Shown: positions 42,755 through 56,657 of the stretch, piece by piece
How positions within the stretch are numbered: the stretch's first letter is position 1
Layout: each line of letters starts with the position of its first letter
Assembly (NCBI RefSeq): GCF_026427775.1
Contig: NZ_CP044532.1
Location: forward strand, 2,914,001 to 2,978,000
Source: Arthrobacter sp. CDRTa11
Lineage (GTDB): Bacteria; Actinomycetota; Actinomycetes; Actinomycetales; Micrococcaceae
Reading direction: 5' to 3'
DNA length: 64,000 bases
Translations under genes and position numbers: made by a program
Notes under the pieces: generated by a model
The model's input: the letters and a program-made list of their open reading frames with translations, nothing else
Told to the model about the DNA's origin: nothing
The model's database searches: none

Positions 42755-43291
42755 CTCGATTGTCCGCCTGGCATGTCCGTGCAGGGTGGGTTTTCCCGGC
42801 CGATCGCACGTTCCCGTGAAAACCTTGCACGGCATCCCGTACAGGAAACCTTGTGATTCTCGAGGCTCTGGACCGGAGCCGCGAGGAAACGCTCTGCGGG
42901 CTTCAATGAATGCCCAAATGGGGCACTTTGACGACAACATTCGAATGGAACAACTCGCACCGGGATGACACAACATCAGCAGCGATTACCACCGTTGAAT
43001 AACGCCGATAATCTACATTATGTAAAGTAAAACAGTGATTATTGCATCTGATGCACGATTCACTCCTCCTCCACCCACTGCCACCCGGTATCGCGTCACT
43101 TGAAGCCGAAATAGCCTGTGACCTGCCGAAACACCGTGCGGAGGGTCGGCCGGGCTACTCGTAAATCCACCGCGCAGGCCCTCAGGAGCTGGATTGCATC
43201 AGGCTGGAATGGCCTTCAGATCCGCGGATTTGCGCGGGTTCTGCATTAATTGCATGATTCTTGCATCCAATGCAATGTATCGGGAGGGTTC
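42755..43291. other. Gene-free AT-richer region upstream of recombinase
   Basis: This 537-bp stretch has no convincing gene. A short frame at 42732-42968 has no recognisable signature. Its right half is AT-richer than the surroundings. It contains a TACATTATGTA palindrome (43014-43024) and the TTGCAT-type palindromes listed separately. It may hold recombination or regulatory sites for the cassette that follows. Confidence 0.6.
43043..43275. repeat. TTGCAT palindrome cluster
   Basis: TGCATC-T-GATGCA (43043-43055) and TTGCAT-CCA-ATGCAA (43261-43275) are perfect inverted repeats. Extra copies of the half site TTGCATC (43194-43200) and TGCATTAATTGCAT (43242-43255) lie between and beside them. 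The last palindrome ends 16 bases before the GTG of the recombinase gene. They probably bind the HTH protein or the recombinase. Confidence 0.6.
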
Positions 43292-44389
43292 GTGGCGGTC
43301 GATTCAGCGGGACGGGTGCTCGACTTCGGCGCTGTGCGTTTCCTTCACCCGGAGGACCACGTGTTCACCCAGATGCTCACTGGCTGGCGCAACCAGCAGT
43401 TGAGCCGGAACCTGGCGTTTGGCACCATCGAGGGCCGCGAACGGCTGGTGACGCGGTTCCAGGAGTCCACTAACGAGTATCCATGGCAGTGGACGCCGGC
43501 CCACGTGGATGAGTTCTTCGGGGATCTTCGCAGCGTGAGGCATGCCGCGCAGTCCACCATCCGGAGCTACCAGGCAGCGCTGAGGGCGTTCTGCGCCTAC
43601 GCAGCGTCGCCCGAGTATGGCTGGGACCGGGTCTGCGAACAGTACTTTGGAACGCACCCTTCGCAGGTCTGCTTTGACTGGAATACCGCGGTCCATGCGC
43701 AGGCGACAGAGTCAGCTCCAGTCCGGCGCCCGTTCACCAGGCAGGAGCTGCAGGCCTTCTTTGACCGGGCCGATGACGAGGTGGACCGGATTGCGACCTT
43801 GGGCCGCAAGGGCTGGCTGCCGGCCTACCGCGACGCTGTCCTGTTCAAGGTGGCCTACAGCTGGGGGCTGCGACGCAATGAGGTCAGACACCTCCAGACC
43901 GTGGATTTTGCCCGGAACCCGCACGCCCGGGAATTCGGCAAGTACGGGGTTCTGCAGGTCCGCTATGGCAAGGCCATGAAAGGGTCTCCCCCGAAACGCC
44001 GCAGCGTCCTGACGGTGTTTGACTGGTCGGCGGAGGTCATCGCCGACTGGCTGGAACGCGGCCACCGGCACATGACCGACGGGCTGGACCTGTTCCCGTC
44101 CGAACGCGGCACCCTTGTCTCGGAGACAGCACTGAACCGCAGGTTCAACCGCTACTGCGAAGACCTGGGCCTCTCCCCCGGACTGGACATCCACTCGCTG
44201 CGCCGCTCCTACGTCACCCACCTGATCGAAGCCGGCATGGACCCCCTGTTCGTCCAGCACCAGGCTGGACACGAGCACGCCTCGACCACGGCCCTCTATA
44301 CCTCCGTCTCCAGCGACTACCGGGTCAACACGCTGCGCCGGGCCCTGGACTCCACCGTCCGGGACGCCCTGGCCGGAATGGAAGACTGA
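43292..44389 (+). CDS. Tyrosine recombinase/integrase
   Basis: A 365-residue site-specific recombinase. An N-terminal SAM-like core-binding domain (about 40-125) is followed by a catalytic domain. The residues are visible in order: Arg in WGLRRNEVRHL, Lys in YGKAMKGSPPKRR, HSLRR, GHEH and the nucleophile Tyr in TTALYTSVS. It starts with GTG at 43292, preceded by GGGAGG. The HTH gene begins 5 bases later, and the third gene overlaps that one, so the three form a unit. Confidence 0.92.
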   Translation: MAVDSAGRVLDFGAVRFLHPEDHVFTQMLTGWRNQQLSRNLAFGTIEGRERLVTRFQESTNEYPWQWTPAHVDEFFGDLRSVRHAAQSTIRSYQAALRAFCAYAASPEYGWDRVCEQYFGTHPSQVCFDWNTAVHAQATESAPVRRPFTRQELQAFFDRADDEVDRIATLGRKGWLPAYRDAVLFKVAYSWGLRRNEVRHLQTVDFARNPHAREFGKYGVLQVRYGKAMKGSPPKRRSVLTVFDWSAEVIADWLERGHRHMTDGLDLFPSERGTLVSETALNRRFNRYCEDLGLSPGLDIHSLRRSYVTHLIEAGMDPLFVQHQAGHEHASTTALYTSVSSDYRVNTLRRALDSTVRDALAGMED

Positions 44390-44394
44390 ACCTC

Positions 44395-44727
44395 ATGAAA
44401 CGAGAGATCGACTACCGGTGGCGGCTTGCAGAACTCATGGCAGCCCGGGGAATGCACAACAGCACCGACTTGAGCCCGTTGCTGAAGGAACGCGGCATCG
44501 AACTCTCTGCCTCCCAGGTCTATCGGCTCGTCACCCAGCGCCCGGAACGCGTTTCACTGATGATGATCGCTGCGCTCTGCGACATCTTCTCCTGCGGACC
44601 CGAGGACCTCGTCACCGTCACGGCCACAGATGCCAAGGTCCGCAAGGTCGCCTCCGACGCCAACGTCGTGGACCTGAACAAGACCATCCGGCCCAAACGG
44701 GCCCGCGTGATCCGCGATGACGGCTGA
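44395..44727 (+). CDS. XRE-type helix-turn-helix protein
   Basis: A 110-residue protein with a lambda-repressor-like HTH (residues 5-70: WRLAELMAARGMHNSTDLSP, then SASQVYRLVTQRPERVSLMMIAALCDIFSC) and a basic tail ending RPKRARVIRDDG. It sits between the recombinase and the zinc-ribbon gene and overlaps the latter by 11 bases. It is the best candidate to bind the palindromes upstream of the cassette, but it could also be a recombination directionality factor. Confidence 0.88.
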   Translation: MKREIDYRWRLAELMAARGMHNSTDLSPLLKERGIELSASQVYRLVTQRPERVSLMMIAALCDIFSCGPEDLVTVTATDAKVRKVASDANVVDLNKTIRPKRARVIRDDG

Positions 44728-46220
44728 AATCACACCGCGGATTGCCGTCCGCGGCCGGCCCCGCACGGCAGGGGCGTTCACCTGCGACAGATGCTCCAGG
44801 GCAGCCGGCAGGCACCGCGCCAGCTGGCCAGAAGGCAGGATCTGCGGGACCTGTTTCACGATCGCCATGCGCACCCACGGTCCCTGCCCCGGCTGCCGAA
44901 CAGAGCGCATGCTTCCCGGGCGGTCTGCTGCCCACGGCGACCAACCGGTCTGTGTCGATTGCGCGGGTATCACCCAGGATTACCACTGCTCCCGCTGCGG
45001 CACGGAAACGGAGCACTACCGCCAGAACACTTGCGCACGCTGCTCACTTCGGGATGACCTCACCGTCCTGTTGCGCGTCGACGAGGCCCGGGGACCGGAA
45101 ACGACGGCGACGAAACTCCTCGGCGCGCTCTGCGGAGCCCAGCGCCCTGAAAGTATCCTCACATGGCTGCGCAAACCCGGTGTCCGCGACTTGCTCGCCC
45201 GGCTTGCCACCGGCGGCATCCCCCTCAGCCATGAAGCGCTGGACAAGGAACCAAACAGCCTGCGGGTGGAACACATGCGCAGCCTGCTCACCCACCACAA
45301 GCTACTCCCGAACAGGGACCACTACCTCGCTCTCTTCGAAGGCTGGCTCACCAACAAGCTCGCGGACCTTGACGACGCCGACATCAGACGGCCGGTCGAG
45401 TCTTTTGCCCGGTGGCACCACCTGCGACGCATCCGGAGCGTCTCTACACGGGAAACCCACCCGAGGCCCCGTCCACAGCGCGAAGCAGGAAATCACCGAA
45501 ACCATCAAATTCCTCACCTGGCTCAAGCTCACCCACGGACGGACCGTCGCCTCCTGTGTCCAGGCCGACGTCGACACCTGGCTGGCCGACGGCCCGACCA
45601 CCAGACACGCCATCAGAACCTTCTTCGTCTGGGCGGTCAAGAACCGGACCTGCACCAACATCACCATCGGATTCCGACAAGCCAAGACCGTGCCACTGCT
45701 CTCCCAGGGCCATCGGCTCGCCATGCTCAAAGCCTGCCTCACCGACAACATCGACACCCTGCACTACCGCGTCGCCGCCACTCTCCTGCTGCTCTACGCC
45801 CAGCCAGTCGTGAAGATCGCCGCGATGAAAAGCACCGACGTGATCCTCACGCCCGATGGCCCGCGTCTGTCACTCGCGGAAGGAGATCCAGCGCCAGTAC
45901 CCGAACCGTTCGCCTCACTGCTCACCCAACACCTGGCCGCACGCCCCAACTTACGCACAGGCAGCAGCTCGGGCAGCAAATGGCTGTTCCCCGGATACCG
46001 GCCCGGGCAACACATCCACCCCAACACGCTCATGGAACGCCTCAGAGAAATCGGCATCGACCTCCTGGGCGCACGCAACGCATCCCTCCGCGCCCTCGTG
46101 AATGAAGTGCCAGCACCACTCGTGGCCGAAATGCTCGGCTACAGCTACCAAGTCACCCAGAAACACTCCGCAGCAGCGGCAGAACCGTGGTCGCGTTACG
46201 CAGGCAAAGAGATGGCATAG
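44717..46220 (+). pseudogene. Zinc-ribbon recombinase-like protein, frameshifted
   Basis: Two frames together encode about 500 residues. The first (from ATG 44717) has six CxxC knuckles at C23/26, C43/46, C57/60, C79/82, C91/94 and C106/109, then helices ending FARWHHLRRIRS. Near 45440-45455 coding switches to the +1 frame. That frame continues with GPVHSAKQEITETIKFLTWL and a C-terminal half like a degenerate tyrosine recombinase (RNASLRALVNEVPAPL, LGYSYQVTQKHS, WSRY), ending at 46220. A one-base insertion or two-base deletion would explain this. A sequencing error or programmed shift cannot be excluded. Confidence 0.75.
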
Positions 46221-46259
46221 ATAATGGCCGAACAGATACTCCGCTACTAGGGAGAACGC

Positions 46260-46493
46260 ATGACGCCCGGAACAATATTCGGACTGGCACTGGTAGGGGC
46301 AGGAATTTTTCTCTTCGCTATTTCACCTGCCCTGACGGAACGGGTGGCGAGGATCCGCGTCGAGTGGTTTCAGCCAAATCTGGACCGGCCGGCATTCAAG
46401 CGGCGAAACGTCAGAATACTGCGGATCATGGCCGGGGCTTGGGTTGGGATCGGCGTCGCCATTGCGATCCTTGGGCTTGTCTCGGCTAGATAA
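46260..46493 (+). CDS. Small two-helix membrane protein
   Basis: A 77-residue protein with two hydrophobic helices (GTIFGLALVGAGIFLFAI and MAGAWVGIGVAIAILGLV) joined by a basic loop (VARIRVEWFQ...FKRRNVRILR). No family is recognised. The start at 46260 has a GGGAGA site. It lies 39 bases after the recombinase cassette, and could belong to it or to the flanking chromosome. Confidence 0.6.
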   Translation: MTPGTIFGLALVGAGIFLFAISPALTERVARIRVEWFQPNLDRPAFKRRNVRILRIMAGAWVGIGVAIAILGLVSAR

Positions 46494-46672
46494 ACCTCGG
46501 TGGCAGAGTTCCTCAACTGGCCATCACGAGACCGCTGGGCGGCACTATCGGCTCCACCGTTTAAATGCGGGCTCTGTAGCCAGCTGAGAATAGTTCGAAA
46601 CCGAATAATCACCGTTACCAGTAGTAATGCTTCGGCCCAACAGCTGAATCAATTCGCCCAGTCCCCCAGCTC

Positions 46673-47125
46673 CTAGCCTGCTGCTTCTCCGACCATCCAA
46701 AGCGGGCCATTGGCGCAGCCGGGCTCAGTCCACCCGTCATGGAACGAGTCAACAAGGCCACCGCCGAAGGCAAAAGGCGAGCCCGAACGCGCCACAACAT
46801 TCTTGCTTGCGTCAAGAACCTCAAAGGACTTCGAATCTCCCTGGACCACGTACCCCTGGGGCCATACAAGAGTGGCCAGGAAAGAATCTCCCGCCGTCTT
46901 CGCCTGTATGCAGCCGTTGCCGTCTACCGTCAACGTGCCGGAGAAAAGCGCGTCCATGCCGCTCAGCTGCGGTATATCAGATGTGACGATGCGGAGGGTG
47001 GAGGATGGTGAGGGCCTTTCGACGGGCGGGACACTGGCAGTCGCGCCGTCTTGTACCGCTGCCGCGCAGGATGCCAGGCAAAGAGCAATGACGGCCAAGG
47101 CAGTGCAGGAAAGTGCGTGCTTCAT
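46673..47125 (-). CDS. Putative lipoprotein
   Basis: A 150-residue protein with a lipoprotein signal (MKHALSCTALAVIALCLASC, lipobox LASC), a Ser/Pro-rich linker and a beta-rich domain of about 90 residues ending WTEPGCANGPLWMVGEAAG. No family is recognised. A GGGGGAAAG site precedes the ATG at 47125. It lies 38 bases downstream of the phosphotransferase gene on the same strand. Confidence 0.75.
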   Translation of the reverse strand: MKHALSCTALAVIALCLASCAAAVQDGATASVPPVERPSPSSTLRIVTSDIPQLSGMDALFSGTLTVDGNGCIQAKTAGDSFLATLVWPQGYVVQGDSKSFEVLDASKNVVARSGSPFAFGGGLVDSFHDGWTEPGCANGPLWMVGEAAG

Positions 47126-47163
47126 TTCTTTCCCCCGATCACAAAACAATGTCTCTAGCCAGC

Positions 47164-47967
47164 CTAAAGCTCGGTAAGGGCGATGACAGCCTCCGCTATC
47201 GGCGCGTGCCGCTCTGCCTGCACGTCATCCCAGTACCCGAGCAGGTGAAGCGTTGTCATCCGGAACACCAGCGCCCTCAGCAGCAGCTGGCGCCACTCCG
47301 GAATGCCGTGGTGACCTGCCAAATCATCCAGCGGGTATCCATGCCAACAGGCGGCATCGGCCACTGCAATCGCCGCCCCCAGTCCTGCCGGACGCCAATA
47401 AGGCGCCCAGTCGATCAACGCCGGCGGCCGCCCCTGTGCAAACAGGACGTTGCCCAACAGATCACCGTGAATGACCTGCGAGGGCGTTTCCACCGGGTGG
47501 TACTCCCCCACCAACAGCTCCAGAAGCTGATCGGCAGGCAAAGCCGCCTCACCCCAGGCCGCACGGTCGGCATTGCTCCACGGATCGTTGGACGCCATGA
47601 TGAAGGCCGGCTGCGGGAGCCCCGCAATGGCACGGTGAAACGCCTCACCTGCCCGGACGACGTCGGAAACCCGGGTCTCGTCCGCGGCGCCCGGGATCCA
47701 CTCGGCAGCTTGCCAGCCGTCGCGGACCCACTTGCCGTGATCGTCGCGGATGGGCCGTGGAACGGTGAACTTACCGGCACCGTCAAGCGCTGCCAGCACC
47801 TCTGACTTCCAGGCAGCCTCTTCGGAATCCTCAGTGGGGCGAAGCACGACGTGCCCTGCCCGCCAGGTGAGCCCCCGGCCGCCAGTCAACCGCTCGGGCG
47901 GCCCCGAAGCCCCGAATGCCGCGAACACTGACCGTGGAGGTGCTGTCGGCGAAATACTTCCAGCCAT
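47164..47967 (-). CDS. Aminoglycoside phosphotransferase-fold kinase
   Basis: A protein of about 267 residues with the APH/choline kinase fold. The Brenner motif is VIHGDLLGNVLF (catalytic D, Mg ligand N), and the second metal site is ALIDWAPYWRPAGL. It probably phosphorylates a small molecule; the family is broad and antibiotic resistance cannot be claimed. The start at MAGSIS (47967) is preferred; MHTGR at 47982 is possible. The much longer frame upstream lies within the opposite methyltransferase region and is not coding. Confidence 0.8.
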   Translation of the reverse strand: MAGSISPTAPPRSVFAAFGASGPPERLTGGRGLTWRAGHVVLRPTEDSEEAAWKSEVLAALDGAGKFTVPRPIRDDHGKWVRDGWQAAEWIPGAADETRVSDVVRAGEAFHRAIAGLPQPAFIMASNDPWSNADRAAWGEAALPADQLLELLVGEYHPVETPSQVIHGDLLGNVLFAQGRPPALIDWAPYWRPAGLGAAIAVADAACWHGYPLDDLAGHHGIPEWRQLLLRALVFRMTTLHLLGYWDDVQAERHAPIAEAVIALTEL

Positions 47968-48040
47968 CCGTCCAGTATGCATGCGGTTGCCCAACGCCAT
48001 CCGCATCGCCCCGCGATCGTGCGAAATCCTGCCTGCTTGT

Positions 48041-48892
48041 CTATTCGGCTGTTTTCCGAGCAACGATCGTGTAGGTGCACGGCACAAGGTCCCGCTCGGG
48101 CACCGGCCACGCATAACCGCCTGGAACCTCCAGCATGCGCGGGCTGAACTTCCAAGGAATGGTGTTGTCCTCGTCGAAACGGAGAATTTGCAGGCCTGCC
48201 CTGATGAGCGAGTTGAGGATGTCGGACAGGGGGTGGGCCCACTGATAGGTCCGGGAGTGCGCGACTTTTCCATCGCCGACATACGTGGACTCGTCATCCC
48301 ATACCTGCGCCCTGCCGTTGCCAAAATATGGATACCTCAGCTGCAGGCCGTCGGCGTGCTCATCAAGGGCGTAGAGGGCAGGATGCCCATCGCGGATGTA
48401 AAACAACCCTCCTGCCCGAAGGAGACCTGATACCTGGGTTGCCCAACGGTCCAGGTCAGGCAGCCAGGTAATGGTTCCGATGCTGGTGTACACGAGGTCA
48501 AAATGGCCTTCGACGGCGGCACGGGCCTCGAGGACGTCCGTCTCGATCCACGTTGCTTCGAGTCCCATATGCTGTGCCAGCCTGGCGGCAGATTCCAGCG
48601 CGGCCGGGGAGAAATCGACGCCTGTGACCTGGGCACCGGCCCGCGCCAGGGACAGTGTATCCGTTCCGATATGGCACTGAAGGTGGCAGACATCCAGACC
48701 CGCCACCGTGCCCCCTGGAAGGAACGGCTGCAGCGCGGCAAGGTCGGTGAGGACGATTTCGGTCAGGTAGTCCGGATCGTCCAAGTCGCTGACCGCATAC
48801 GCCTTTTCGTGCAACGGAACCCGGTCTTCCCAGTTGTCGCGGTTGCTCGCGCGCGCTGATTCCCATTCGACCGCAATCGGACTTTCACTCAT
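48041..48892 (-). CDS. Class I SAM methyltransferase
   Basis: A 283-residue methyltransferase with GLDVCHLQCHIGTDTLSLARAG as SAM loop, VTGVDFSPAALESA as motif II, and a GLFYIRDGHPALYALDEHADG core. It has the YPYFG and TYQWAHPLSDILNSLI C-terminal pattern of small-molecule methyltransferases common in actinobacteria. The substrate is unknown. It is divergent from the methyltransferase at 49053. Confidence 0.88.
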   Translation of the reverse strand: MSESPIAVEWESARASNRDNWEDRVPLHEKAYAVSDLDDPDYLTEIVLTDLAALQPFLPGGTVAGLDVCHLQCHIGTDTLSLARAGAQVTGVDFSPAALESAARLAQHMGLEATWIETDVLEARAAVEGHFDLVYTSIGTITWLPDLDRWATQVSGLLRAGGLFYIRDGHPALYALDEHADGLQLRYPYFGNGRAQVWDDESTYVGDGKVAHSRTYQWAHPLSDILNSLIRAGLQILRFDEDNTIPWKFSPRMLEVPGGYAWPVPERDLVPCTYTIVARKTAE

Positions 48893-49052
48893 AAGCCGAG
48901 TCTATGCAGAGGCACGGACCGGCGGCGAAACCCACCACGTCGTCGTCGAGCTTTACATCCGCCTCCTGCCGCGCTCACAATAAGCGCACCACAGCCTCCA
49001 AGGGCCAACAGCGGGCTGTCCATTGAAAACCTGCACAGCAAGGGGCAATGAC

Positions 49053-49916
49053 ATGAATGAGCAGACAGATGCCATCGACGCGGACCGGGTACTGAAGCAA
49101 AAGCACCGGGCCATGTGGGCCCAGGGCGACTACCCAGCCCTCGCCGGCGAACTGATTCCGGACCTCGGGGCGATCCTCGTCGAAGCGTGCGGGGTCAAGT
49201 CCCGGCAGCGTGTCCTTGACGTGGCCGCCGGCGCCGGCAACGCGGCGATCCCAGCAGCCATGATGGGAGCGGAAGTGGTGGCCAGCGACCTCACCCCCGA
49301 ACTCTTCGACGCCGGGCGCCGGCAGGCAGCGGACCGTGGGGCTGAACTGGAATGGATGGAAGCCGACGCCGAATCCCTGCCCTTTCCTGACGACGAATTC
49401 GATGTGGTGCTGTCCTGCCTGGGTGTGATGTTCGCACCGCACCACCAGGCGGCTGCTGATGAGCTGGTGCGCGTGTGCAAACCCGGCGGCACCATTGGGC
49501 TGCTGAGCTGGACTCCTGACGGGTTCATCGGCAGGATGTTCGCGGCCATGAAGCCGTTCGCTCCCCCACCCCCGCCTGGTGCCCAGCCACCGCCTCTTTG
49601 GGGCAGCGAAGTCCACGTGCGCGAGCTCTTGGGAGACAGGATCACGGATGTCCAGGCGCGGACGCAGACAGTCTCAATCACCAGCTTCCATAGGCCGGAC
49701 GACTTTCTGCACTACTTCAAGTCCCATTACGGCCCGACCATCTCCGTCTACAAGTTCCTCGCCGGGGATGAGGAAAAGATCACGGCTCTGGACAAGGCGC
49801 TCACGGAACTGGCCGATACCTTCAGCGACGCCCACGGTGATGCGCCATCGCAGATGGACTGGGAATACCTGCTGCTGACGGCCAGGAAGCAGCAAAGGGA
49901 AACCCGCCACTCTTGA
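49053..49916 (+). CDS. Class I SAM methyltransferase (UbiE-like)
   Basis: A 287-residue methyltransferase with VLDVAAGAGNAAIPAAMMGAEVVASD as SAM loop and motif II, and EADAESLPFPDDEFDVVLSCLGVMFAPHH as the UbiE-like core. A proline run (APPPPPGAQPPP) lies in the C-terminal half. The substrate is unknown. The start at 49053 follows an AAGGGG site; an in-frame ATG at 49023 is less likely. Confidence 0.88.
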   Translation: MNEQTDAIDADRVLKQKHRAMWAQGDYPALAGELIPDLGAILVEACGVKSRQRVLDVAAGAGNAAIPAAMMGAEVVASDLTPELFDAGRRQAADRGAELEWMEADAESLPFPDDEFDVVLSCLGVMFAPHHQAAADELVRVCKPGGTIGLLSWTPDGFIGRMFAAMKPFAPPPPPGAQPPPLWGSEVHVRELLGDRITDVQARTQTVSITSFHRPDDFLHYFKSHYGPTISVYKFLAGDEEKITALDKALTELADTFSDAHGDAPSQMDWEYLLLTARKQQRETRHS

Positions 49917-49990
49917 TAGCGGAGCAATCGTGCTCTGACCGATTCAGGCCGGCTCTTGAACTTCCGGCCCTCCCATGTGAGTATTCACGG

Positions 49991-50012
49991 AGCGGGATAA
50001 CGATTTCCCGCT
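49991..50012. repeat. AGCGGGA inverted repeat
   Basis: AGCGGGA and TCCCGCT are separated by 8 bases (TAACGATT), 75 bases after the methyltransferase stop. It could be a weak terminator or a protein-binding site. The rest of 49917-50216 shows no gene; a LacI-type operator lies at 50071. Confidence 0.45.
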
Positions 50013-50070
50013 GCCCTTCGGCCCGGTGTATGGCAATTTTTCAATGCTGCGGATGGACGTGGGAGAGTGT

Positions 50071-50084
50071 TGTTAGCGCTCACT
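50071..50084. promoter_or_regulatory. LacI-family operator
   Basis: TGTTAGCGCTCACT closely matches the LacI-family half-site palindrome TGTTAGCGCTAACA, with the AGCGCT core intact. It lies 133 bases before the alginate-lyase-like gene. No lacI gene lies in this window, so the regulator would be elsewhere. Confidence 0.6.
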
Positions 50085-50216
50085 CACCAACTGCGCCCGC
50101 TGTGATTGCCATGGCGAGCCGTGGGGCGGGCCCATGTCTGGACGGAGTGCAGTGCCGCCGTCGCAGTCGTAATCGACGGACCCACAACTTCAGCCAGCCC
50201 TAGCGAACGGAAGTCA

Positions 50217-51929
50217 ATGACGACGAATTACCGCCACCCGCACTCATTCGGCAGTACGATTTCACGCAGGTCCCTGATAGCAGGCGCCTCACTGGCCATA
50301 CCTCTTGCAGCTTTCGGAAATTTGGGTGCTTCGGCAGCCAAGGACAAGCCCCGTCCCGTGCCGCTCGCCACTGCAGCCGGGACGTCCACCTACGCACACC
50401 CTGGGCTGGTGCACACGCTGTCGGACATCGAACGCGTATCGACACAGGTGGACAGTGGCGCCCAGCCCTGGCTGGGTGGCTGGGACCGCCTGGTGGCAAA
50501 CGGGCGTTCCCATTCCGGCTGGCAGCCGCGTCCGTTGGAGACAGTCGTCCGCGGCGGCGACGGCTCCAACTACGGGCAGCTGTTCCCCGACGTCCATGCC
50601 GCGTACCAGAACGCCCTGAGGTGGCGGATCTCCGGCGACGCCGCCCATGGTGCGGCTGCCGTGCGGATCCTCAACGCCTGGTCCGGGATGTTGACCACGG
50701 TCACCGGCAACGCCGACCGCTTCCTGGCCGCCGGCATCTACGGCTACCAGTTCGCTAACGCGGCAGAGCTGGTGCGGGACCACCCAGACTTCGAATTCGA
50801 GCGGTTCCGGGACATGCTCCTCAACATTTTCCACCCGATGAATGAGGACTTCCTCACAAATCACAATGGTGCTGTCATCACGAACTACTGGGCCAACTGG
50901 GACCTCTGCAACATGGCATCGATCATGGCCATCGGCATCCTCGCGGACCGCGACGATCTGGTGGACCGCGCGGTCACCTACTTCCAGAGCGGGGCGGGCA
51001 ACGGCTCGCTGGCGAACGCCGTGCCCTTCGTTTACGAGGACGAGGGCCTGGCCCAGTGGCAGGAGAGCGGCCGCGACCAGGCGCATACCATTATGGGCAT
51101 CGGGCTCATGGGTGCCTTCTGCGAAATGGCCTGGAACCAGGGCATCGACTGCTACGGGCACGACAACAACCGCTTCCTCAAGGCAGCGGAGTACGTCGCG
51201 AAGTACAACCTCGGCAACGACGTCCCGTTCACCCCGTACACCTGGCAGTCCGGCCCAAAGGCCACTACCGCACCCCACGTCGGCTGGCAGACCCAGACAG
51301 TCCCCGGAGCCGGCTCCCGCGGGCAGGCCCGGCCGGTGTGGGATCAGGTCCTGGGACACTACTCCGGCCGCATGGGCCTCAGCACCCCCTGGGTCAGCCA
51401 AATCGCTGCCACCCTTCGGCCGGATAGCGGAGGAGGCGATTACGGCAGCACCTCCGGCGGGTATGACGCCCTCGGATTCGGCACGCTGATGCAGTATCCC
51501 GCCCAGACCGGCAGCCGCCTTTCCCGGTTGCAAAGCTTCAACGTCCCGGGCCGCTATGTCCGGCACTCCGGTGCAACAGTCCGCCTCGATCCCACGACGT
51601 CGCCGGTCAACGACTCACAGTTCCGGGTAGTTCCCGGGCTTGCCAGCGGGGCAGAAGGGCGAATCTCCTTTGAATCCCTGGACATGCCCGGCTACTTCCT
51701 GCGCCACTGGAACTACCAGTTCAGCCTGGTGAAGAATGACGGCTCGGCGATCTTCAAAGCGGACACGACCTTCCTTCCTGTGCCCGGCCTGGGCCACAGC
51801 CGCCTGACATCCTTCCGGTCGCACAACTTCCCGGACCGGTATATCCGCCACCAGAACTACGCCCTGGTTCTGGCTCCAATGGTGAGCGACTTGGACCGTG
51901 CAGACGCAACATTCCGGATGGTTGACTAG
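50217..51929 (+). CDS. Tat-exported alginate lyase/AbfB-domain protein
   Basis: A 570-residue secreted protein. The N-terminus has a twin-arginine signal (STISRRSLIAGASLAIPLAAF) cut near ASA. An alginate-lyase-like helical domain follows (about 70-430) with NYWANWDLCNMASI and DQAHTIMGIGLM segments. The last 150 residues form an AbfB (CBM42-like) beta-trefoil with repeats such as SFNVPGRYVRH, SLDMPGYFLRH and SHNFPDRYIRH. AbfB modules bind arabinose side chains, so the substrate is probably a plant polysaccharide. A LacI-type operator lies upstream. Confidence 0.88.
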   Translation: MTTNYRHPHSFGSTISRRSLIAGASLAIPLAAFGNLGASAAKDKPRPVPLATAAGTSTYAHPGLVHTLSDIERVSTQVDSGAQPWLGGWDRLVANGRSHSGWQPRPLETVVRGGDGSNYGQLFPDVHAAYQNALRWRISGDAAHGAAAVRILNAWSGMLTTVTGNADRFLAAGIYGYQFANAAELVRDHPDFEFERFRDMLLNIFHPMNEDFLTNHNGAVITNYWANWDLCNMASIMAIGILADRDDLVDRAVTYFQSGAGNGSLANAVPFVYEDEGLAQWQESGRDQAHTIMGIGLMGAFCEMAWNQGIDCYGHDNNRFLKAAEYVAKYNLGNDVPFTPYTWQSGPKATTAPHVGWQTQTVPGAGSRGQARPVWDQVLGHYSGRMGLSTPWVSQIAATLRPDSGGGDYGSTSGGYDALGFGTLMQYPAQTGSRLSRLQSFNVPGRYVRHSGATVRLDPTTSPVNDSQFRVVPGLASGAEGRISFESLDMPGYFLRHWNYQFSLVKNDGSAIFKADTTFLPVPGLGHSRLTSFRSHNFPDRYIRHQNYALVLAPMVSDLDRADATFRMVD

Positions 51930-51972
51930 CTCCGGCTCAAAAGGACCCGGAATGCACGCAGTGACTGCGGTA

Positions 51973-52011
51973 CATCGTGGGGCGGGAGCGCCGGCCCTCC
52001 GCCCCACGATG
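51973..52011 (+). terminator. Terminator of lyase gene
   Basis: CATCGTGGGGCGG and CCGCCCCACGATG form a perfect 13-bp stem around a 13-base loop, 43 bases after the lyase stop codon and just before the trp-like promoter. Confidence 0.7.
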
Positions 52012-52016
52012 CCCGC

Positions 52017-52046
52017 TTGCGGGAAGCGGCTCCGGCCCCCTAAGAT
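52017..52046 (+). promoter_or_regulatory. Predicted promoter of the attenuated operon
   Basis: TTGCGG (52017-52022) and TAAGAT (52041-52046) are 18 bases apart. Transcription would start near 52053, right at the leader ATG, so the leader peptide mRNA is probably leaderless. Confidence 0.5.
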
Positions 52047-52053
52047 CGGGCCC

Positions 52054-52095
52054 ATGCGCTTCTCAGCTTCTTCTTCTTGGTGGCCCGCCCCGTAA
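52054..52095 (+). CDS. trpL: Tryptophan leader peptide
   Basis: A 13-residue reading frame, MRFSASSSWWPAP, carries two tandem Trp codons (52078-52083) and ends with TAA at 52093-52095. No ribosome-binding site is seen; the ATG is probably at or near the 5' end of the transcript. Stalling at the Trp codons would control the hairpins that follow. Confidence 0.85.
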   Translation: MRFSASSSWWPAP

Positions 52096-52154
52096 GGCGG
52101 ACTGACGCGCGCACAACCACGCTCACGACCGCCTCGCCAGGCGGTCGTTTTTTT
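52085..52154 (+). promoter_or_regulatory. Transcription attenuator
   Basis: Three mutually exclusive pairings are visible. CCGCC (52085-52089) can pair with GGCGG (52096-52100) as the pause hairpin. The same GGCGG can pair with CCGCC (52129-52133) as antiterminator. CGACCGCC (52126-52133) can pair with GGCGGTCG (52140-52147), followed by a seven-T run, as terminator. Ribosome stalling at the Trp codons would favour the antiterminator when charged tRNA-Trp is scarce. Confidence 0.85.
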
Positions 52155-52198
52155 GCTGCACCGGTCGGGCGGGGTGGACATAAACCCAGGGACTGTCC

Positions 52199-54136
52199 AT
52201 GACCTCGCTCCTCACCCGCATCGTTAACTCCTCCACGGAGGCGTCACTGCCTTTCGCCGTCATACGGCGCCAGCAGTCCGACGTCGTAGACGTCCTCACA
52301 GGCGACATTGTCGACGTCGAGAACCTGGCGGACATTCCCCTCGACTGGACGTCCGGCGGGCAGGACGTGCTTACCATGGTTCCGTTCCGCCAGGTCAGGG
52401 AGCGCGGATTTATGGCGACCGACGACGGCGCGCCGCTCCGTTGCCTGCTCGTAACGGAACGTGAAACGGTAACCATCGCTGAAGCGCTGGCCATTCTTCC
52501 CGCCAATACGGTTCCCATCGAGTCTCTGGGGTTTGAGACGTCCGACGCAGACTACGCCGGGATCGTACGGCGGGTTATCGACGAGGAAATTGGACAAGGC
52601 GAAGGCGCCAACTTTGTCATCCGGCGCTCTTTCCGCGGAGGCATCGAAGCTTCCCCGGCGTTTGCGGTGCTTGCATGGATGCGTGCGCTGCTCCTCGCAG
52701 AGCAGGGCGCCTACTGGACCTTTGCGGTGCACTCCCCCGGGCATTCACTTGTCGGAGCAACTCCGGAGCGCCACGTCTCGGTCAAGGACGGCATGGTAAC
52801 GATGAATCCCATTTCCGGGACATACAGGCACCCAGGCGCCGGTCCCACTGCAGAAGGCGTCCTGGGATTCCTGTCCGACATCAAGGAGAGTGGCGAACTC
52901 TTTATGGTGGTCGATGAGGAACTGAAGATGATGAGCGCCATCTGTCCGGACGGCGGGCGCATCCTGGGCCCGTACCTCAAGCAGATGTCCAGGCTCAGCC
53001 ACACCGAGTATCTGCTGGAGGGCCGAACCGGACTGGATCTGCGGGAGGTCCTGCGTGCCACCATGTTCGCTCCCACCGTTACCGGCTCTCCCATGGAGAA
53101 CGCCTGTTCCGTTATCGAACGCCATGAAGAGGGTGGCCGCGGATACTACTCAGGTGTCTTGGCGTTCTTTGAGTCCCGAATGGACGGGAACGGTTGCGTT
53201 TCCTATGAGCTGGACGCACCAATCCTCATCCGCACGGCCCACGTGGACGGGACCGGCGCCGTCACCGTGTCGGCAGGCGCTACGCTCGTTCGGCTCTCGA
53301 CGCCGGAAGGAGAGGCAGCAGAAACGCATGCAAAAGCGTCAGGAATACTCTCGGCGCTTGGGCTCCTCCCCTCGACGCCGGCCCCACCGGCCGTGGACCT
53401 GAACTCACTGCCAGGCGTGGCTGAGGCGCTTCTGGATCGAAACAGCCAATTGGCACCGTTTTGGATCCGCCCCCAGGGCTGGGAACAACACCCGCCCCTT
53501 GCCGGCAAAACAGCGCTTGTCATCGACTGCGAGGACCAGTTTACCGAGATGCTCGCCCATCAACTGCGCCACCTCGGCATGGAAACCACCGTGGTCCGAT
53601 GGGATGCCGCCGTGGATATTTCCACCGCCGACCTGGTGGTCTTCGGCCCTGGCCCCGGAGATCCGCGGAGCGACACCAGCAGGCGGCTGGCAACCGTGCG
53701 GACCCTGATGCTTGCCAGGCTGGAGGCGGGCCGGCCGCTGCTGGCCGTCTGCCTGAGCCACCAGCTCCTGTCGATCCTTGCGGGGCTTCCCGTTGAAGCA
53801 TTGCCTACCCCGCGTCAGGGCACACGGCTTGACGCAGACGTTTTCGGTACCCGGGCCAGCCTCGGCTTTTACAACACCTTCGCCGCCATGGCTGAGCCAG
53901 GCCAGCTGGCAACACCTCGCCTCAACCTGGAGATCTCCGCAGACAACGGCATCGTGAACGCGTTACGCGGCGAAGGGGTCGCATCCATTCAGGGACACCT
54001 GGAATCTGTGCTCTCCACCGATGGCCTGGCCACCTTGGAGCGGCTCATACGATCCGTGCTTTCCGGGCCCGCGGCCGGGCAGAGCTTCGCGGAGGGCCTG
54101 TCGCTGCGGAGGCTGGCGGCCGGTCAGCCGTCGTAG
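52199..54136 (+). CDS. PhzE-like fused anthranilate/ADIC synthase
   Basis: A 645-residue fusion of a chorismate-utilising domain (1-390) and a class I glutamine amidotransferase (430-645). The synthase part has MNPISGTYRHPG (202-213) and SCVIERHEEGGRGYYSGV-like motifs, as in PhzE. The amidotransferase part has GPGPGDP, catalytic C518 (AVCLSHQ) and H600/E602 (QGHLES). Products could be ADIC or anthranilate. No phzD, phzF or phzB is nearby, and a tryptophan attenuator precedes it, so a role in Trp supply is more likely than phenazine synthesis. Confidence 0.9.
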   Translation: MTSLLTRIVNSSTEASLPFAVIRRQQSDVVDVLTGDIVDVENLADIPLDWTSGGQDVLTMVPFRQVRERGFMATDDGAPLRCLLVTERETVTIAEALAILPANTVPIESLGFETSDADYAGIVRRVIDEEIGQGEGANFVIRRSFRGGIEASPAFAVLAWMRALLLAEQGAYWTFAVHSPGHSLVGATPERHVSVKDGMVTMNPISGTYRHPGAGPTAEGVLGFLSDIKESGELFMVVDEELKMMSAICPDGGRILGPYLKQMSRLSHTEYLLEGRTGLDLREVLRATMFAPTVTGSPMENACSVIERHEEGGRGYYSGVLAFFESRMDGNGCVSYELDAPILIRTAHVDGTGAVTVSAGATLVRLSTPEGEAAETHAKASGILSALGLLPSTPAPPAVDLNSLPGVAEALLDRNSQLAPFWIRPQGWEQHPPLAGKTALVIDCEDQFTEMLAHQLRHLGMETTVVRWDAAVDISTADLVVFGPGPGDPRSDTSRRLATVRTLMLARLEAGRPLLAVCLSHQLLSILAGLPVEALPTPRQGTRLDADVFGTRASLGFYNTFAAMAEPGQLATPRLNLEISADNGIVNALRGEGVASIQGHLESVLSTDGLATLERLIRSVLSGPAAGQSFAEGLSLRRLAAGQPS

Positions 54137-54594
54137 GCCTGCTGAAGCTGCGCGATGTCCAACTTCTGCATTCCAAGCATCGCCTGCATGGCGCGCTGCG
54201 AGCCCTCGGGATCAGCACCCCCCAGGAGTGATCCGAGAACCGAGGGGATGATCTGCCAGGACACCCCATAACGGTCCTTCAGCCACCCGCACCGCTGCTC
54301 GGATCCGCCGTCGGTAAGTGCTGCCCAGTACCGGTCCACCTCGTCCTGATCGGCGCAATCGACCACAAAGGAAACTGCTTCGGTAAAATTGCTCGCCGGG
54401 CCGCCATTGAGTGCCATAAACCTGCGCCCTTCGATCTCGAACTCCACCGTCATTGCCTGGCCCGCAGGCCCTGGGCCGCCCTCCCCGAACCGGGCCACGT
54501 TAAGGATCCGGGAATCACTGAAGACCGACGTGTATAAACCGGCGGCTTCTTCGGCCTGGTTCTCGAACCACAGGCATGTCGAAATTTGCTGCAT
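54124..54594 (-). CDS. VOC/PhnB-like protein
   Basis: A 156-residue PhnB-type VOC protein. It shows STCLWFENQAEEAAGLYTSVF at the start, FALNGGPASNFTEAVSFVVDC in the middle and GVSWQIIPSVLGSLL near the end, a pattern often annotated as 3-demethylubiquinone methyltransferase-like, although catalysis is unproven. The start at 54594 is used because the longer frame lacks similarity. The last 13 bases overlap the end of the PhzE-like gene on the other strand. Confidence 0.85.
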   Translation of the reverse strand: MQQISTCLWFENQAEEAAGLYTSVFSDSRILNVARFGEGGPGPAGQAMTVEFEIEGRRFMALNGGPASNFTEAVSFVVDCADQDEVDRYWAALTDGGSEQRCGWLKDRYGVSWQIIPSVLGSLLGGADPEGSQRAMQAMLGMQKLDIAQLQQAYDG

Positions 54595-54721
54595 CTGCTT
54601 CCTATCCGAGCTGAGCCTAATCCGGCGTGCATGGCTGCACAACGATTCCTGATGGGTCGCCGAAGGGCACGTGGCAGGACTCACGGCTTTTCTCTGTCGG
54701 GAAACCGTTAGGCTCGAAGGC

Positions 54722-55153
54722 GTGAATCCCGAGACCAGACAGACGAAACAGCAAAACAGGTCCGACGGCGCCGGCCGCCTTGTCATCGCGGGAGCGGCCT
54801 CGACTGATGCCCTCCTTATCCTGGTCTTCGCAGCCATCGGCCGGGACGCCCATCAGCGCGGCGACGTCGTCACGGGGGTACTGCTGACGGCCTGGCCCTT
54901 CCTTGCCGGAGCTGCGCTCGCGTGGGCTGCGGCAAGAGTCTGGCGCCGTCCCCTGTCTGTCCGCCCGGCAGGGCTGGCAGTCTGGCTCGGAGCCGTCGCG
55001 GGCGGGATGCTCCTGCGTGCGCTGACGGGACAAACCGTGGTGATCGCGTTTGTCGTCGTCGCCCTGCTGACTTTGGGCGTGTTCCTTATGGGCTACCGTC
55101 TCCTGCTGGCACTGCTCATCCGGTTGCGGCGCCCGGCAAACAAGGGCTCATGA
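54722..55153 (+). CDS. DUF3054 family membrane protein
   Basis: A 143-residue protein with four hydrophobic helices and the DUF3054 pattern (DALLILVFAAIGRDAHQRGD, LTAWPFLAGAALAW, GGMLLRALTGQ, AFVVVALLTLGVFLMGYR). Family function is unknown. It starts with GTG at 54722. Confidence 0.85.
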   Translation: MNPETRQTKQQNRSDGAGRLVIAGAASTDALLILVFAAIGRDAHQRGDVVTGVLLTAWPFLAGAALAWAAARVWRRPLSVRPAGLAVWLGAVAGGMLLRALTGQTVVIAFVVVALLTLGVFLMGYRLLLALLIRLRRPANKGS

Positions 55154-55233
55154 CCGGAGCGATGTAATAGGCTGGCAGCACTGAACAGTCCCGCCGGCGC
55201 ACTGCTACGGCCTACAAATCCGGAAGGATTGAA

Positions 55234-55598: not shown

Positions 55599-56657
55599 TC
55601 AGGCCTGCGTGAGCGATACCCACTTATCAAGGACTGCGGCGGCAGCACCTGAGTCGATTGAGGCAGTGGCCCGCGCCAGCGCTGTTCGCATACGTTCAAG
55701 GAATGGCCCGTGGGCTTCTGTATCGAAAGCCACCAGTCCTGCTGCCGCATTGAGCAGGACTGCATCGCGGGCTGGTCCGGCCTTGCCGGCCAGGACGTCG
55801 CGCACGACGGCGGCATTGGCCTGCGCATCTCCGCCACGCAGCTCTTCCACAGTCGCCGGACGGATTCCAAGATCGGCCGGGGAGAACGACGACTCGGTGA
55901 CGTCACCGTCCCGGATCTCCCAGACCGTCGAGGGTCCGGTGGTGGTCAGTTCGTCCAGCCCGTCGTCTCCGCGGAACACCAGGCCCCTGCTCCCCCGGCG
56001 GGCCAATACGCCTGCCACCAAAGGCGCCATCCTGGCGTTTGCCACCCCAACGGCTGAGGCCTGGACATGAGCCGGGTTGGTCAGCGGGCCCAGGAAGTTG
56101 AAGGCGGTGGGGATGGCCAGTTCACGCCGGGGCACGGCGGTGTGACGGAACGACGGATGGAATACCTGCGCAAAGCAGAAGGTGATGCCTGCTTCCTCGG
56201 CGTTGCTGGCCACCTGGTCGATGGGGAGGTCCAGCCTGACCCCCAATGCCTCCAGCACATCGGCCGAACCGGAAGAGGACGACGCCGCGCGGTTGCCGTG
56301 CTTCACCACCTTGGCACCGGCACCTGCAGCCACCAGGGCCGCCATGGTGGAAATGTTCACTGTGTTGAGCTGGTCTCCCCCGGTACCAACAATGTCCAGT
56401 TTCTGCCCGGAAATACTCACCGGCCGGGCGTGGCCCAGCATTGCTTCGACCAAACCTGAGATCTCTTCGACAGTTTCGCCCTTGGCGCGGAGGGCAACCA
56501 GGAAGCCGGCAATCTGAGCCGGGGTCGCCTCGCCGGACATAATGGTGCCCATCGCCCAGGCGGTACTGTCCGCTGTCAGGTCTGTGCCATTAATGAGTGC
56601 GGAGATGAGGCGCGGCCACGTGTTGCCGGCCGCCGGTGCCGATGCCTGAGAAGTCAC
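55599..56657 (-). CDS. trpD: Anthranilate phosphoribosyltransferase
   Basis: A 352-residue enzyme that joins anthranilate to PRPP in the second step of tryptophan synthesis. The PRPP-binding GTGGD ([17 protein letters not shown]), [21 protein letters not shown] and [10 protein letters not shown] segments are all present. It lies 1.5 kb from the end of the PhzE-like synthase but on the other strand, not in one operon. It is divergent from ctaE. Confidence 0.95.

Follow-up and report, generated by a model that had tools for sequence, protein, structure and literature searches.

The locus at positions 52017 to 54136 of the window (the whole 64,000-nucleotide stretch of Arthrobacter sp. CDRTa11 DNA that was analysed) is very probably a self-contained, tryptophan-attenuated, fused glutamine-dependent TrpE(G) of the Streptomyces type, and the genome's second anthranilate synthase in addition to a canonical trpE. 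The anatomy of the locus, the conservation of its leader and helices, its family placement and its genome context were observed directly and form the basis of this reading.

Anatomy of the locus

The features of the locus and the neighbouring trpD are as follows.

52017..52046, forward strand: predicted promoter from sequence, TTGCGG-N18-TAAGAT; the -10 box ends 7 nt 5' of the leader ATG
52054..52095, forward strand: trpL leader peptide MRFSASSSWWPAP and stop codon, 13 aa with two Trp codons; leaderless mRNA predicted
52078..52083, forward strand: tandem Trp codons TGGTGG, putative ribosome stall site
52085..52100, forward strand: 1:2 pause hairpin CCGCC/GGCGG; region 1 (CCGCC) is at 52085-52089
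52095..52100, forward strand: region 2, AGGCGG, its first bases inside the leader stop codon
52095..52134, forward strand: 2:3 antiterminator, AGGCGG (52095-52100) with CCGCCT (52129-52134)
52125..52154, forward strand: 3:4 intrinsic terminator, 10 pairs and a loop of 4; stem 52125-52148, seven T at 52148-52154
52199..54136, forward strand: trpE(G), PhzE-like fused anthranilate synthase of 645 aa (Chorismate_bind and GATase), with chorismate-binding (residues 117-379) and glutamine amidotransferase (440-615) domains
55599..56657, reverse strand: trpD, anthranilate phosphoribosyltransferase (uses anthranilate), in a separate operon 1.5 kb downstream of trpE(G)

An earlier note on this DNA had described a leader with tandem Trp codons, pause, antiterminator and terminator pairings and a seven-T run, and all of these elements were located at 52054-52154. 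Folded in isolation, the 3:4 terminator (-18.3 kcal/mol, z -5.25) was the only helix far below shuffled sequences. The 2:3 antiterminator reached -14.4 kcal/mol (z -1.76), with 15 of 200 shuffles equally good, and the 1:2 hairpin (-11.0 kcal/mol, z 0.24) was as stable as shuffled sequence. The single-sequence fold of the whole 111-nt leader was of ordinary stability (z -1.17). The composite arrangement, a WW leader and stop, then a hairpin with 8 or more bp and a U-rich tail (at least 6 T in 8), occurred once in the window and in none of 40 dinucleotide shuffles. Rfam models gave nothing at gathering score over the leader; relaxed-threshold matches (microRNA, sRNA, antisense and cis-regulatory), all below gathering scores, were dismissed as chance. 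A generic sigma-70 scan of 51800-54300 found no promoter.

The top PDB sequence match of trpE(G) was 3r74, with 520 bits against 58.5 bits for the best TrpE, which bears out the previously noted resemblance to PhzE rather than TrpE. The 3r74 entry is deposited as 'Anthranilate/para-aminobenzoate synthases component I'; we take it (also 3r74-3r76) to be PhzE, the ADIC synthase of phenazine clusters. With 3r74, trpE(G) has the motifs MNPISGTYR and PTVTGSP in common. Against the canonical TrpE models TIGR00564 and PRK13571, trpE(G) scored 84 and 92.5 bits, below the cut-offs of 517.7 and 693. The remark that no phenazine genes lie nearby also stands: none was seen among the eight neighbouring frames scanned, and the window's genome yielded no PHZA_PHZB family gene in a search that was strongly positive for Pseudomonas PA7. 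The eight frames encode methyltransferases, an alginate-lyase/AbfB protein, a 3-dmu-9_3-mt family protein, a DUF3054 protein and three products without a match.

Two features of the surroundings were recorded separately. A 607-aa protein with alginate-lyase and AbfB domains (50106-51929) lies directly upstream of the attenuator, in a variable region. At 44717-46220, a pair of long frames (462 and 492 aa) overlap and lack Pfam matches; the end of the second is recombinase-like by eye, and the pair looks like one gene split by a frameshift.

Other chorismate enzymes in the genome

The window's genome holds four Chorismate_bind genes. The canonical trpE (C1:2036457-2037866) scored 754 bits with PRK13571 and 599 bits with TIGR00564, and lies about 1.2 kb before an IGPS gene. 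A second further gene carries the PabB-type motif GSMTGAPK, and the one that remains besides these two and trpE(G) was taken for an isochorismate synthase candidate. No WW leader ORF was found in the ~450 bases before the canonical trpE. A 7-residue WW ORF about 450 bases before it is out of frame inside the upstream gene and was rejected as a leader. The check for another trpE that the earlier note had suggested thus returned a canonical gene at a separate locus. Since this gene is also in the genome, trpE(G) is probably a starvation-inducible second anthranilate synthase. This agrees with the 'alternative, starvation-induced anthranilate supply' put forward before: the other, canonical trpE has no WW leader, the attenuator is conserved, and genome context points to the family being an anthranilate synthase. 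The nearby trpD and the separate canonical trpE are points absent from the earlier note.

Conservation of the leader and its helices

Homologues were compared in a set of 111 rows, comprising the best 80 of more than 80 named loci, 30 Streptomyces loci, one per genome, and the window; L005, which is the window itself and is counted once as such, and L006 are left out of this set. Among the matches listed, a WW leader lay upstream in 88 of the 111 homologues (72 of the 80 named loci, 15 of the 30 Streptomyces loci and the window), and 78 of these 88 passed a strict hairpin test. The Streptomyces loci are the best match per genome, so their 15-to-15 split is not a frequency. The 23 rows without a leader are L083 and L096, which are at contig ends, L120, in which the motif was not found and which was left unscored, and 20 others. 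The combination of a PhzE-like gene with a Trp attenuator, known from Streptomyces, is here found in many other actinobacteria.

Among the matches listed, 83 distinct leader stretches were analysed for pairing. A terminator hairpin was present in 81, a 2:3 helix of at least 5 bp in 78 (mean 21.2 and maximum 31 when the segment holding region 2 was shuffled), and both the 2:3 and 1:2 helices in 77; terminator loops of up to 24 were allowed. Five leaders failed the helix criteria (L036, L092, L098, L100 and L101). Some of these failures may be scripting misses, and L036 and L100 have plausible terminators. L067, whose leader reads MSANRTWWHCA by eye, was left out of the helix and -10 box counts. 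The 2:3 pair types shift in step by lineage, from AGGCGG/CCGCCT in Arthrobacter to GGCGGT/ACCGCC in many Microbacterium and GGCGGCC/GGCCGCC in Streptomyces. Regions 1, 2 and 3 read CCGTCT, AGACGG and CCGTCT in Kutzneria CA-103260 (L102), and CCGCCT, AGGCGG and CCGTCT in Kutzneria strain 744 (L106); this difference is a two-sided change in the 1:2 helix.

In each of the 88 leaders tested among the matches listed (the window, L006 and 86 others), a TAnnnT box precedes a start codon by 6-8 nt, as against 14 of 352 when the test was slid to four other places. An in-frame leader ATG or GTG counted when the hexamer ended 5-10 nt upstream of it; among several such starts, the one that fitted was taken. 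In S. lividans, which transcribes trpL1 leaderless, TAnnnT is the reported -10 consensus (PMC8079986). With the box at this distance, the leader mRNAs would be leaderless and ribosomes probably enter at their 5' ends; for the window, leaderless transcription is predicted and fits the position of its -10 box. The conserved box suggests that leaders of the TrpE(G) family are leaderless in general, as reported for S. lividans.

Family placement

In a midpoint-rooted tree of 70 rows (Microbacterium rows were thinned for all trees), the 20 leaderless rows among the matches listed formed one clade with the P. aeruginosa PA7 enzyme (SH-aLRT 99). The gene for the PA7 enzyme lies about 3 kb from two phzA/phzB-type genes, and most other members of the clade carry no pathway assignment here. 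The window enzyme fell in a leader-bearing group of 23 rows (SH-aLRT 100), whose sole leaderless row, L096, is truncated at a contig end. With TrpE and PabB as outgroup, the leader-bearing rows all stood on one side of a branch with a support of 99, and the leaderless row L141 stood apart from the other leaderless rows. In the midpoint tree the leaderless clade is nested inside leader-bearing rows. A descent of PhzE from an attenuated TrpE(G) does not follow from these trees, as the midpoint and outgroup trees disagree and the root branches, of length 5, make direction unreliable in outgroup rooting.

Four positions (273, 357, 383 and 514), all hydrophobic-hydrophobic exchanges, separate leader-bearing from leaderless rows. 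The comparison used 49 of the 87 leader-bearing rows and 20 leaderless rows, with L083, L096, L101 and L120 dropped. The cleanest is position 273, with Leu in 49/49 sampled leader-bearing rows and Ile in 20/20 leaderless rows; the window enzyme has Leu273 and Val357. Descent alone would produce fixed differences, the leaderless rows being a single clade, and the four positions are possibly a purely phylogenetic signal.

Across 15 genomes searched for PHZA_PHZB, PA7, G291 and G298 were strongly positive, G262 and G289 were weakly over the cut-off, and G288 was below it. The G262 match, in Microbacterium barkeri (C5:149377-149760, 41 bits), is in a genome that carries a leader-bearing enzyme and is probably a distant relative. 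A PHZA_PHZB match of 27.5 bits was seen in Yinghuangia. Planobispora (L113, genome G297) has a leaderless homologue of the phenazine clade, and its genome gave no TrpE above the cut-off. This is either an anthranilate synthase without attenuator or an assembly gap; the absence of a leader therefore does not cleanly denote an ADIC synthase.

Distribution and movement

Full-length homologues, counted for the most part irrespective of a leader, were found in 2 of the 61 genomes that sampled the genus, in 1 of 197 in the family sample (the window's own genome) and in 60 of 297 in the order sample (18 of 94 genera). In Streptomyces they occurred in 58 of 61 genomes, with or without leader. The other Arthrobacter-type carriers seen were G048 (L006, 77%) and a named MAG (L035, 78%). 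In both, our reading of the ORFs places the gene between ftsK-like genes and an RNase J-like gene, away from trpD. Compared with L035, the window shows DNA similarity over 52036-54046, a stretch that opens 18 bases ahead of the leader ATG, so that leader and gene are shared and the flanks are not. Six relatives in the genus match on the trpD side from ~54126 or 54790, and lack the gene and its upstream neighbours. This pattern fits a leader-plus-gene unit gained at two places; loss elsewhere is also conceivable. The idea of a mobile island was dropped: no direct repeats of at least 18 bases were found in 42800-55200, and no clear GC anomaly was found.

One of the six relatives has an apparent fructan-utilisation cluster at the trpE(G) site. 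Upstream of the trpD region, 59 bases of the window (43001-43059) are common to relatives in the genus though the intervening DNA differs; they match L168 (121-179, 91.5% identity) and, over 27 bases, L169 (4888-4914). This stretch may be an edge of the variable region or a shared promoter.

Anthranilate or ADIC as product

The TrpE survey covered 46 of the best 80 named loci and the window's genome, giving 45 genomes with L089 and L092 missing. A TrpE over the TIGR00564 cut-off was found in 22 of the 45, and 23 were below: all 21 Microbacterium genomes (G259, G261-G272 and G274-G281; loci within L040-L093), Scrofimicrobium and Planobispora. By comparison, trpD was present in 45/45 genomes searched and IGPS in 26/26 tested, including all 23 without a TrpE over the cut-off. 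Each Microbacterium genome gave three sub-cut-off TIGR00564 matches. Five residual matches, from 3 of the 21 genomes, were scanned: L145, L147 and L148 are PabB-type, with PabB as best model just below the PabB cut-offs, and L171 and L172 are isochorismate synthases above the TIGR00543 cut-off. One residual match in Scrofimicrobium is PabB-type. As Microbacterium has trpD and IGPS and no TrpE over the cut-off, its TrpE(G) homologue is a candidate anthranilate synthase; it appears to be the best and, by these searches, the only one. The attenuated PhzE-like enzyme thus seems to have taken the place of canonical TrpE in Microbacterium.

The S. venezuelae enzyme SvTrpEG is described as highly similar to PhzE (PMC3111181), and the title of Ashenafi 2008, as given in the same source, calls S. 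venezuelae TrpEG an anthranilate synthase and not an ADIC synthase. The fused S. venezuelae enzyme is described as monomeric, and ammonia as no substitute for glutamine (PMC5897657); trpE3 and trpE are listed as single genes in S. coelicolor (PMC5036795). Lim6, a PhzE homologue, makes mainly ADIC with anthranilate as a minor product (PMC5958127), so the two activities are not strictly separate.

The earlier note had also raised an 'unrecognised ADIC-derived pathway' tied to Trp level. The corresponding rival reading is a genuine ADIC synthase of the PhzE type that, under Trp control, supplies a pathway other than that of phenazines. PhzE is the closest solved structure, MNPISGTYR and PTVTGSP are shared with it, and sequence is described as uninformative on why PhzE stops at ADIC (PMC5958127). 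However, PhzE-like sequence is common to the whole actinobacterial TrpE(G) family, and it is the leaderless homologues, not the leader-bearing ones, that group with the Pseudomonas phenazine enzyme. With no PHZA_PHZB gene in the genome, an ADIC synthase rejected in the Ashenafi title for S. venezuelae TrpEG, and Microbacterium otherwise left with no anthranilate synthase, we find an ADIC pathway unsupported and an ADIC product very improbable. A role in specialised metabolism, with the anthranilate going into a metabolite other than Trp, is suggested by the accessory status of the gene in the genus (2/61 sampled) and by the variation of the surrounding region between relatives; it is very improbable, as the eight neighbouring frames scanned include no biosynthetic cluster and Trp-codon control suits Trp supply.

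A reading of the leader as a random ORF in GC-rich spacer DNA, with a terminator belonging to the upstream gene, has virtually no chance of being right. The terminator does lie ~200 bases past the stop of that gene, and the single-sequence fold is unremarkable. Against this, leader, helices and -10 box are conserved across actinobacteria, the composite did not recur in shuffled sequence, and two other Arthrobacter genomes keep leader and gene together at a different locus.

Proposed mechanism

The scheme for a Trp-attenuated anthranilate synthase is deduced from sequence as regards transcription start, termination, Trp response and catalytic product. Judging from the -10 box, RNA polymerase would start at or beside the leader ATG, and the ribosome would load at the 5' end. 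When charged tRNA-Trp is ample, the ribosome would reach the stop codon and cover region 2, so that 3:4 forms and transcription ends at the U run. When it is short, the ribosome would stall at WW and cover region 1, 2:3 would form, and the gene would be transcribed. TrpE(G) would then convert chorismate to anthranilate, for TrpD and Trp synthesis.

A wider proposal, which we consider rather unlikely, is that a portable promoter-leader-terminator-TrpE(G) cassette is acquired by Arthrobacter as a Trp-starvation booster, that phenazine ADIC synthases are the branch that lost the attenuator as well as the pyruvate-lyase step, and that the attenuator predicts anthranilate. If it were true, positions of the Leu273 type would be a short list for the unexplained difference in product. 

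Independently of this proposal, the attenuator may be a cheap genomic label for anthranilate versus ADIC synthases, a difference described as not visible in sequence (PMC5958127). Naming by best match ('PhzE', phenazine) misleads here: the branch with the Trp attenuator probably belongs to Trp biosynthesis.

Comparison with known systems

The attenuated TrpE(G) system itself is already known, in its Streptomyces type. For the S. venezuelae trpE(G) attenuator, both PMC1262725 and PMC4833913 refer to Lin et al. 1998. By 2005, attenuation of trp genes was on record for Streptomyces and Corynebacterium (PMC1262725), and PMC4833913 lists a 2015 proceedings paper that deals with Trp-dependent attenuators across Actinobacteria. 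In S. lividans, trpL1 (MFAHSTRNWWWTAHPAAH) is reported to precede a monocistronic trpE, to be leaderless and to be seemingly independent of Rho (PMC8079986). Streptomyces leaders found here, such as MFAHSTRTWWWTAHPAAH, match S. lividans trpL1. A limited search for literature specific to Trp attenuators of Arthrobacter returned nothing but a broad review. On the basis of this limited search, the new points may be the breadth of the leaderless design, the replacement in Microbacterium and the close match between leader and clade.

The locus shares with the Streptomyces trpE(G) attenuator a tandem-Trp leader directly upstream of a PhzE-like fused gene, the terminator, a leaderless leader mRNA (reported for S. 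lividans, predicted here) and a separate canonical TrpE over the cut-off, present in both Streptomyces genomes searched (G291 and G294). It differs in that the window leader has 13 aa and two Trp codons, whereas Streptomyces leaders have 18 aa and three, and in that region 2 lies at and beyond the stop codon, not within the leader ORF. Moreover, it is rare in the genus Arthrobacter, whereas a homologue of either kind occurs in 58 of 61 Streptomyces genomes. With PhzE, trpE(G) shares the fused architecture, the active-site motifs and the 520-bit match; in contrast, it is separate from the leaderless Pseudomonas phenazine clade, has no phenazine genes and is expected to make anthranilate. The same overall reaction is expected as for canonical TrpE, but scores are far under the cut-offs of the TrpE models. 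Finally, the trp attenuator of E. coli uses the same 1:2, 2:3 and 3:4 pairing and Trp codon logic; unlike it, the attenuator described here precedes a single gene, and its leader mRNA is predicted to be leaderless.
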